This document shows positions 4,023-6,257 of a DNA stretch of 35,474 nucleotides, one piece after another. Numbering within the stretch: the first letter of the stretch is position 1; each line of letters begins with the position of its first letter. The notes under the pieces were generated by a model that made no database searches, had not been told where the DNA came from, and saw only the letters and a list, made by a program, of their open reading frames with translations. Source of the stretch: Prosthecobacter sp. (GTDB lineage: Bacteria > Verrucomicrobiota > Verrucomicrobiia > Verrucomicrobiales > Verrucomicrobiaceae); the NCBI GenBank assembly GCA_030827515.1, contig JAUREI010000019.1, forward strand, positions 1 through 35,474. The letters run 5' to 3'. Both the position numbers and the translations under genes were made by a program.

Positions 4023-5444
4023 ATGAACAACCCGACCCTGACCACGCTTTCTACCATCAACGCCGATGGTTCGCGAAAGTTCGTGCATCCCGCCGATGTC
4101 CAGGGGCGCTTCACCCGCTGGCGCCGGCTATCGGCCCTGCTTCTGCTGGTCATCTACGCGGCCCTGCCATGGATCCCGGTGAAGGGTTTTCCCGCGGTCT
4201 TTCTGGACGTTCAGACCCGCCGTTTTCACTTTTTCGGCCTGACCCTGGCGGCGCAGGATCTGTGGGTGGGGTTTTTCCTCATCACGGGTTTGGCCTTTGC
4301 CCTGTTCTTCGTCACCTCCCTGTTCGGTCGCATCTGGTGTGGATGGACCTGTCCCTACACGGTCTTTCTGGAGCACGTGTATCGGCGCATCGAGCGTTGG
4401 ATTGACGGGGATGCTTCGGCTCGCCGCCGTTTGGAAAAGGCGCCGTGGACGGTGGACAAGATCACCCGGCGACTGGTCAAGCACGCCCTGTTCCTGCTGG
4501 TTTCGGCCCTGATCGCCCATCTGTTCCTCAGCTACTTCGTCTCGATCCGGGGGCTGTACGGCATGATGCAGCGCTCGCCGCAGGAGCATGCCCTGGCTTT
4601 TGGTGTCGTGGTCTTCCTCACCGGGGCCCTCTACTTTTCGTTCAGCTGGTTTCGCGAGCAGTTTTGCATCATCCTCTGCCCCTATGGTCGGCTGCAGTCG
4701 GCGCTGACCGACGATCATTCGGTGGTCATTGGCTATGACAAGCGGCGCGGCGAGCCTCGCGGCAAGGCCGGCGCGGCAACCGGGGACTGCATCGATTGTC
4801 GACGCTGTGTCCAAGTCTGCCCGACCGGTATCGACATTCGCAACGGCCTGCAACTCGAGTGCATCGGCTGCGCGGCTTGCGTCGACGCCTGTGACGACAG
4901 CATGATCAAGCTGAAGCGGCCGACCGGACTGGTGCGCTATGATTCGCATGCCGGCCTGCATGGCGGACACACGCGCCTGATCCGCCCGCGCACGATCTTT
5001 TATTCCTGCATCCTGCTTGCCGGCGCTGTCGCCTTCCTGTTTGCCGCATCACGCATTGAGCCGCTGCGCGCCAGTGTTGTGCGGATGGTGGGTGCGCCCT
5101 ATTACGTCGCTGACGGGGTGGTGCGGAATCAGTTTCTGGTGCGCGTGATCAACAAGCGCAACGAGGCCTCGAGCTACCGGCTGGAATTGGCGGGCGCGGT
5201 GCCTGCGGGTCTGCAGGTGGCCGGTGCCGATCGGGAACTGTATCTGGAGCCGATGGGCGAGGAGCAGAAGACCCTGGTTCTGTCCCTGCCCGAAGCCGCC
5301 TTCAAGGGGTCCTTCAAGCTGCAGGTCAAGGTCACTGAGATTGCCAGTGGCGCCAGCATGACGACACGTGTCATGGAGTTTCTGGGGCCCGACCCACGTC
5401 TGAAATCCGATGTTCCGCTCAATCCGAGAGATTTTGTCCAGTAA
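4023..5444 (+). CDS. ccoG: Cytochrome c oxidase accessory protein CcoG (FixG/RdxA family)
   Basis: A membrane iron-sulphur protein needed for copper delivery during assembly of cbb3-type cytochrome oxidase. At 473 residues it is the usual length. The N-terminal part has several membrane segments and the family motifs RIWCGWTCPYTVF and ILCPYGRLQ. Two 4Fe-4S clusters are marked by CIDCRRCVQVCP and CIGCAACVDACD (about residues 255-290). A further membrane helix at about 325-343 precedes the C-terminal Ig-like FixG_C domain. In many bacteria it follows ccoNOQP, but here it follows a deacetylase gene and no oxidase subunit genes are present, so the oxidase must be encoded elsewhere or just outside the window. 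Its 3' end overlaps a small membrane ORF. Confidence 0.95.
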   Translation: MNNPTLTTLSTINADGSRKFVHPADVQGRFTRWRRLSALLLLVIYAALPWIPVKGFPAVFLDVQTRRFHFFGLTLAAQDLWVGFFLITGLAFALFFVTSLFGRIWCGWTCPYTVFLEHVYRRIERWIDGDASARRRLEKAPWTVDKITRRLVKHALFLLVSALIAHLFLSYFVSIRGLYGMMQRSPQEHALAFGVVVFLTGALYFSFSWFREQFCIILCPYGRLQSALTDDHSVVIGYDKRRGEPRGKAGAATGDCIDCRRCVQVCPTGIDIRNGLQLECIGCAACVDACDDSMIKLKRPTGLVRYDSHAGLHGGHTRLIRPRTIFYSCILLAGAVAFLFAASRIEPLRASVVRMVGAPYYVADGVVRNQFLVRVINKRNEASSYRLELAGAVPAGLQVAGADRELYLEPMGEEQKTLVLSLPEAAFKGSFKLQVKVTEIASGASMTTRVMEFLGPDPRLKSDVPLNPRDFVQ

Positions 5445-5571
5445 GCCCTGGCTTCCGGTGGTGCTGCTAGTCGCGGTCTTTTTGACCGCGTGGTTCTGCT
5501 TCATTCGCATCGCCCTGGCCAACCAGCCACCGACCGTTCCCCTGGAGCCACCCTCCGCCGCTGTGCCATGA
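5410..5571 (+). CDS. Small single-pass membrane protein between ccoG and the SafE-like gene (possible reduced FixH/CcoH-like protein)
   Basis: This 53-residue ORF is below the length limit of the supplied track. It starts with ATG inside the last 35 bases of ccoG and ends in TGA at 5569-5571, overlapping the ATG of the next gene as ATGA, the usual sign of translational coupling. The protein has a short basic N-terminus (MFRSIREILSSKPW), one clear hydrophobic segment (LPVVLLVAVFLTAWFCFIRIALA) and a short Pro-rich tail. In cco clusters the slot between ccoG and the SafE-like gene is commonly filled by FixH/CcoH, a small membrane protein of oxidase assembly. Only the membrane anchor is present, so the assignment to that family is inference from position and topology. 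It could also be an unrelated small protein, but the junctions on both sides argue that it is translated. Confidence 0.62.
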   Translation: MFRSIREILSSKPWLPVVLLVAVFLTAWFCFIRIALANQPPTVPLEPPSAAVP

Positions 5572-6257
5572 TGCCGATCGACACCAGTGCCGCCGCCTTT
5601 CTCGCCGGTCTGGTGACCAGCGTGCATTGTGTTGGCATGTGCGGCCCGCTGTCCTGTTCCTGGGCGGTGAGTGCGACGCCTGGATCGGCGGTTTTTTTTC
5701 GGGACACCGGCTTGTACCACGGCGGCCGGCTGCTGGCTTACGGCCTGGTCGGTACCCTGGCCGGGGCCGTTGGAGTCGTGCCCCTGGGGTTTTTCCAGCA
5801 CGGGGCCGGCTTGGTCCTGCCCTGGCTGATGGTCCTGGCCTTTGCCCTGGTCGGTCTGGGGCTGGACGGCCGGCTGCCCAAGCCGGGATTCCTGGAGCGG
5901 CCGCTGCGCCGGTTGCAGGCGGCCGCGTTTCGCATGAAGAGCGGTCCGCGCTCCGGCCTGCTGGGCTTGGCGACCCCCCTGCTGCCCTGCGGGCCGCTGT
6001 ACATGATGTTCGCCCTGGCGCTGGCCAATGGCTCAGCAATGAAGGGTGCGGGTTTCACGGTGGCTTTCGGCCTGGGCACGCTGCCCTTGCTCTGGCTGGC
6101 CCAGACCGGCTTGCACCGGTTGGGAGGCACCCTCTCGCCGGCCGCCGTTGGGCGTTTGCAGCGGGGGCTTGCCCTGGGCACCGCGGTCCTGCTGGCCTGG
6201 CGCCTGCGCGACACCCTGGATTTCGGCAGTGTGGCGACGCCCAGTTGCTGCCACTAG
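5568..6257 (+). CDS. Sulfite exporter TauE/SafE-family (DsbD_2-like) membrane protein
   Basis: A 229-residue polytopic membrane protein of about six helices. It carries the family signatures HCVGMCGPLSC near the N-terminus and TPLLPCGPLY in the middle, each with a conserved cysteine in a Pro/Gly context typical of the DsbD transmembrane-like PF13386 group. A terminal CCH may bind metal. Members are routinely encoded beside ccoG/ccoI in cbb3 oxidase assembly clusters and are thought to move reducing equivalents or metal across the membrane; the precise role is unsettled. The track start at 5490 lies inside the preceding small ORF. I place the start at the ATG of the ATGA overlap (5568, or the next ATG at 5571). 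A run of eight T (5692-5699) lies in the coding sequence but the frame is intact. Confidence 0.88.
   Translation: MMPIDTSAAAFLAGLVTSVHCVGMCGPLSCSWAVSATPGSAVFFRDTGLYHGGRLLAYGLVGTLAGAVGVVPLGFFQHGAGLVLPWLMVLAFALVGLGLDGRLPKPGFLERPLRRLQAAAFRMKSGPRSGLLGLATPLLPCGPLYMMFALALANGSAMKGAGFTVAFGLGTLPLLWLAQTGLHRLGGTLSPAAVGRLQRGLALGTAVLLAWRLRDTLDFGSVATPSCCH

Follow-up and report, generated by a model that had tools for sequence, protein, structure and literature searches.

Several small proteins accompany the cbb3-type oxidases. CcoS (PF03597) is a protein of about 50-60 residues that acts in cbb3 assembly and, like the cbb3-linked CcoQ/FixQ proteins (PF05545; about 50 residues), has one helix. CcoM of the Pseudomonas cbb3 oxidases is a single-helix accessory subunit, C. 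jejuni requires CcoH for cbb3 oxidase activity, and CcoH has been reported to bind via its transmembrane domain (PMC8267372). In R. capsulatus, the N-terminal helix of CcoH was placed on TMH9 of CcoN by co-evolution and cryo-EM, where only residues 1-35 were modelled (PMC7876108). CcoG, from the ccoGHIS cluster, is a cupric reductase (PMC7558416). A short or truncated CcoH was not described in the literature that we searched, most subscription journals being outside that search.

Here, we analysed a stretch of 35,474 nucleotides from Prosthecobacter sp. (the window), which is contig C258 of a fragmented 4.05-Mb assembly of 315 contigs. The features that concern us are the following:

4023..5444, + strand: ccoG (fixG/rdxA), TIGR02745 E 5e-131; the last 35 bp are shared with the small ORF
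5410..5571, + strand: putative helix-only FixH/CcoH-like protein, 53 aa; translation, family conservation, pN/pS, AlphaFold2
5452..5520, + strand: predicted transmembrane helix of the small ORF, residues 15-37; AlphaFold2; conserved stripe W14 (just N-terminal of the helix), F21 (V in the window), W28, I32, A35
5568..6257, + strand: SafE/DsbD_2-like membrane protein gene, PF13386 E 1e-36; ATGA coupling at 5568-5571

The 53 codons at 5410-5571 (+) specify MFRSIREILSSKPWLPVVLLVAVFLTAWFCFIRIALANQPPTVPLEPPSAAVP*. A sequence-only reading had proposed that this ORF overlaps ccoG by 35 bp, is joined to the SafE-like gene by ATGA, and encodes one clear membrane helix. Indeed, the overlap with ccoG, whose TIGR02745 match of 437.6 bits is above the cut-off of 316.7, spans 5410-5444, and the SafE-like gene starts with the ATG at 5568 within the ATGA that contains the stop codon of the small ORF. 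Such a -4 bp stop/start overlap is the commonest junction between the two genes in the order (23/67 slots). AlphaFold2 likewise predicted a single helix of membrane length at residues 15-37 (block pLDDT 90-98).

To look for the ORF at the same position in related genomes, we relied on ccoG, which was present in 71 of the 96 relatives searched. The stretch following ccoG was read in 63 members of the order and in another 53 genomes of the phylum, and as six of these were read twice this amounted to 122 slots in approximately 116 genomes. With an iterated profile, a homologous short one-helix ORF was recovered in 119 of these 122 verrucomicrobial slots. Among the remaining three genomes, G196 and G213 have a short member on another contig, whereas in G370 the contig ends and a full-length FixH is located on another contig. 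The short helix ORFs of G213 (L241:2023-2268) and G196 (L242:2003-2215) lie in stretches without ccoG, among apparently unrelated neighbours. A synonymous bias was likewise evident: over 22 independent closest pairs, with the ccoG overlap left out, pS was 0.345 and pN 0.103, giving a pooled pN/pS of 0.30 (chi-square P 4e-54). No close relative was seen in which the frame had been lost while ccoG and the SafE-like gene remained, and genomes in which ccoG directly abuts the SafE-like gene were encountered in other phyla only. The small ORF is a genuine conserved coding gene under purifying selection.

The sequence-only reading had also placed the ORF in the slot of FixH/CcoH while noting that it is far shorter, and both statements held. 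A phylum-wide search retrieved FixH above the PF05751 cut-off in 18 genomes, all except one outside the class of the window, and in 17 of these 18 the gene directly follows ccoG. In these other Verrucomicrobiota the protein after ccoG measures 145-192 aa, as compared to 53 aa here. Among named records, full-length FixH loci occur in Bacteroidota, Ignavibacteriota, Calditrichota, Planctomycetota, Fidelibacterota, SAR324 and a few Myxococcota, so that full-length FixH holds this same slot in other phyla as well. By contrast, 12 of the 13 named records with a verrucomicrobial-type CcoG (Prosthecobacter, Opitutaceae, Akkermansiaceae, Chthoniobacter) carry the short ORF in the slot. In the thirteenth, L261 (Chthoniobacter), a UspA-like gene at bases about 4950-5430 separates ccoG from the short ORF, which still adjoins the SafE-like gene. 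In G550, a gene for a metal P-type ATPase directly follows the short ORF, resulting in a ccoG-H-I order, and by eye the arrangement in G577 and G208 resembles that of G550. The short ORF is therefore positioned as FixH is, namely after ccoG and before either ccoI, the P-type ATPase gene, or a SafE-like gene.

In one Myxococcota clade and in Bdellovibrionota, ccoG runs straight into the SafE-like gene with no FixH in between. Loci of these two phyla in which the SafE-like gene adjoins or overlaps ccoG are L268, L271, L272, L274, L275, L279, L281, L283, L289, L293, L294 and L301. In a PF05751 search of 12 such genomes the sole hit was a partial and borderline one in Polyangium, and cbb3 assembly in these Myxococcota and Bdellovibrionota may proceed without CcoH.

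The distribution of the slot states was compared with a CcoG tree of 51 rows, in which the CcoG of the window is nearest to that of a Prosthecobacter record. All rows with the short state formed one clade (support 99/97), which indicates a single origin, and its sister (99/96) was a clade made up mainly of Myxococcota, in which the slot has no FixH. The CcoG of a member of the Limisphaerales (L314) groups with those of Calditrichota and Bacteroidota, and its slot contains a full-length FixH. The state of the slot thus goes with the lineage of CcoG and not with that of the species. Since the verrucomicrobial CcoG proteins group with myxococcal ones whose slot lacks FixH, a descent of the short protein from full-length FixH is proposed by parsimony; the simplest history would comprise one truncation and separate full losses elsewhere, and the order of these events is likewise inferred.

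Searches of Pfam, NCBIfam and the PDB with the window sequence or the short-family profile gave nothing usable, the window sequence itself having no match in Pfam and NCBIfam. Nonetheless, when 26 short members were scanned against Pfam, PF05751 FixH was named first and was matched weakly by nine of them, the best at E 9e-4, and the curated cut-off of 23 bits was not reached. A direct comparison was more informative. By hhalign, the short-family profile aligned with that of 45 full-length FixH sequences with a probability of 87.8% (E 3.3e-6), over the N-terminal helix only; an earlier alignment with a FixH set of 17 had given 71% (E 3.7e-5). In this alignment the invariant W of the short family is in register with that of FixH, and V43 of the short proteins falls at or beside the invariant V38 of FixH. 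Ten transmembrane slices from CcoG and SafE that served as controls scored at most 16.1, compared with 32.7 for the short family and FixH, and none of 300 hydropathy-preserving column shuffles matched the latter score. Among structures, the FixH/CcoH chains 9g6b_C and 6xkw_h match the full-length FixH profile, although 6xkw_h does so only at E 0.94. The case for homology thus consists of about 35 columns of hydrophobic helix together with synteny, and because the aligned segment is short and hydrophobic we regard the support as good but not final. At this level, it is well supported that the short protein is homologous to the transmembrane helix of FixH/CcoH and lacks the periplasmic domain.

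The helix of the short family has features of its own. Its conservation peaks, W14, F21, W28 and A35, are spaced exactly seven residues apart and form a heptad stripe on one helix face (the window has V at position 21), with a conservation moment that reaches its maximum close to 104 degrees per residue (permutation p 0.0004). This W-F-W-A stripe is not shared as such by FixH/CcoH. What the two have in common, apart from the slot, is the invariant W that starts the N-terminal helix, a conserved V about 30 residues further on and a predicted cytoplasmic N-terminus, which for the short family follows from K+R being more abundant before the helix (2.84) than after it (1.70). The short family has a tail that begins with a P-x-x-V-P-L-like motif, and a median of 19 residues follows the helix core, compared to 118 in full-length FixH. 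The V..(D/N)YY motif and the periplasmic domain of approximately 100 residues that characterize FixH are absent; this includes the YY pair, which has Y in 44/45 and 42/45 of the full-length sequences. As the short protein stays below the PF05751 cut-off and lacks the periplasmic domain, we do not file it under PF05751, and we refer to it as a helix-only FixH/CcoH-like protein, which matches CcoH in slot and helix. The sequence-only reading had left open whether the product is a reduced or a distinct assembly factor. The first option is favoured by the presence of full-length FixH in the same slot elsewhere and by the alignment with the N-terminal FixH helix, and the second is disfavoured accordingly.

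The principal challenge to this view is that FixH gave way, in the ccoG-SafE operon, to an unrelated small membrane protein specific to this lineage, with CcoG or the SafE-like transporter as its partner instead of the oxidase. We consider this unlikely, albeit a reading to be taken seriously. The YY motif that follows the helix is the strongest FixH hallmark, and its absence speaks for an unrelated protein, as do the lack of a database match for the window sequence and the absence of FixH from the nearest CcoG clade. However, an unrelated protein would not readily explain why the profiles align in register at two invariant landmarks and far above the controls, nor why the gene occupies precisely the FixH slot. 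As for the partner, the L261 arrangement, where the short ORF stays next to the SafE-like gene though parted from ccoG, speaks for the transporter, whereas the G550 arrangement, with a metal P-type ATPase gene as the neighbour instead, speaks against it.

The cbb3 oxidase itself is encoded elsewhere in the genome. Contig C11 carries a cbb3 cluster with a ccoNO fusion (1151 bits), a FixQ-like gene and ccoP. The FixQ-like ORF (52 aa) lies between ccoNO and ccoP, and upstream of ccoNO there is a second small one-helix ORF that is CcoS-like by eye, without a PF03597 match; both small ORFs match FixQ only below its cut-off. A relocated CcoQ/FixQ, CcoS or CcoM would agree with our small protein in its similar length and one helix, CcoM being likened to it by description and not by sequence. 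That the ORF is such a known component is nevertheless highly improbable, since the genome already possesses the FixQ-like ORF and the CcoS-like ORF, and since the Pfam match of the short family is to FixH, neither FixQ nor CcoS being among its matches. We accordingly rejected an identity as CcoQ/FixQ or CcoS, given that there is no profile match and that the ORF is located outside the oxidase structural operon. Least probable of all is a spurious ORF or a functionless, decaying FixH remnant, as the short length, the overlap with ccoG and the poor family matches might suggest. For the family this reading is refuted by its conservation and selection, and we rejected a spurious ORF, because the family occupies nearly every slot across the class (119/122), shows one-sided helix conservation and purifying selection (pN/pS 0.30), and has a single old origin.

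A genome-wide search for PF05751 found no FixH in the genome of the window, and we therefore rejected the idea that FixH is encoded elsewhere in it. A second, divergent oxidase cluster lies on contig C313 (L064:8030-14329). It comprises an aa3-type CtaD, a ccoP-like cytochrome, and CcoN-like and CcoO-like genes that are well under the TIGR00780/TIGR00781 cut-offs (126 bits versus 583). As the small ORF and ccoNO-Q-P are on different contigs of this fragmented assembly, and as this second cluster exists, the cbb3 oxidase of contig C11 is the presumed partner.

We conclude, with a probability of roughly 0.72, that the small ORF encodes a FixH/CcoH of which only the N-terminal membrane anchor is left, and which would pack on the cbb3 core to support assembly. 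The presence of cbb3 and absence of FixH, together with the published CcoH helix site on CcoN, the requirement for CcoH and the reductase activity of CcoG, lead us to infer a helix-only CcoH that is bound to the oxidase core and probably serves as a cbb3 assembly factor. Its N-terminus would reside in the cytoplasm and its helix would span the membrane, with the conserved W/F/W/A face packing against the cbb3 core at the CcoN helix-9 site that CcoH uses in Rhodobacter. There, beside the CcoG copper reductase, the helix could stabilize the CcoN and CcoP sub-complexes during assembly without any periplasmic domain.

Thus, a conserved small protein of the Verrucomicrobiota that current family models miss has been identified. 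A natural helix-only CcoH/FixH across a bacterial class sets one half of the protein apart from the other, and the retention of the helix-only version predicts that contact between helix and oxidase core is essential while the periplasmic domain is not. The helix may therefore suffice by itself for the essential function of CcoH. More tentatively, the membrane helix might even be the whole functional unit of CcoH, in which case a large lineage would make its cbb3 oxidase with a 23-residue, heptad-faced helix that serves as a small subunit or assists assembly, the periplasmic domain being dispensable.
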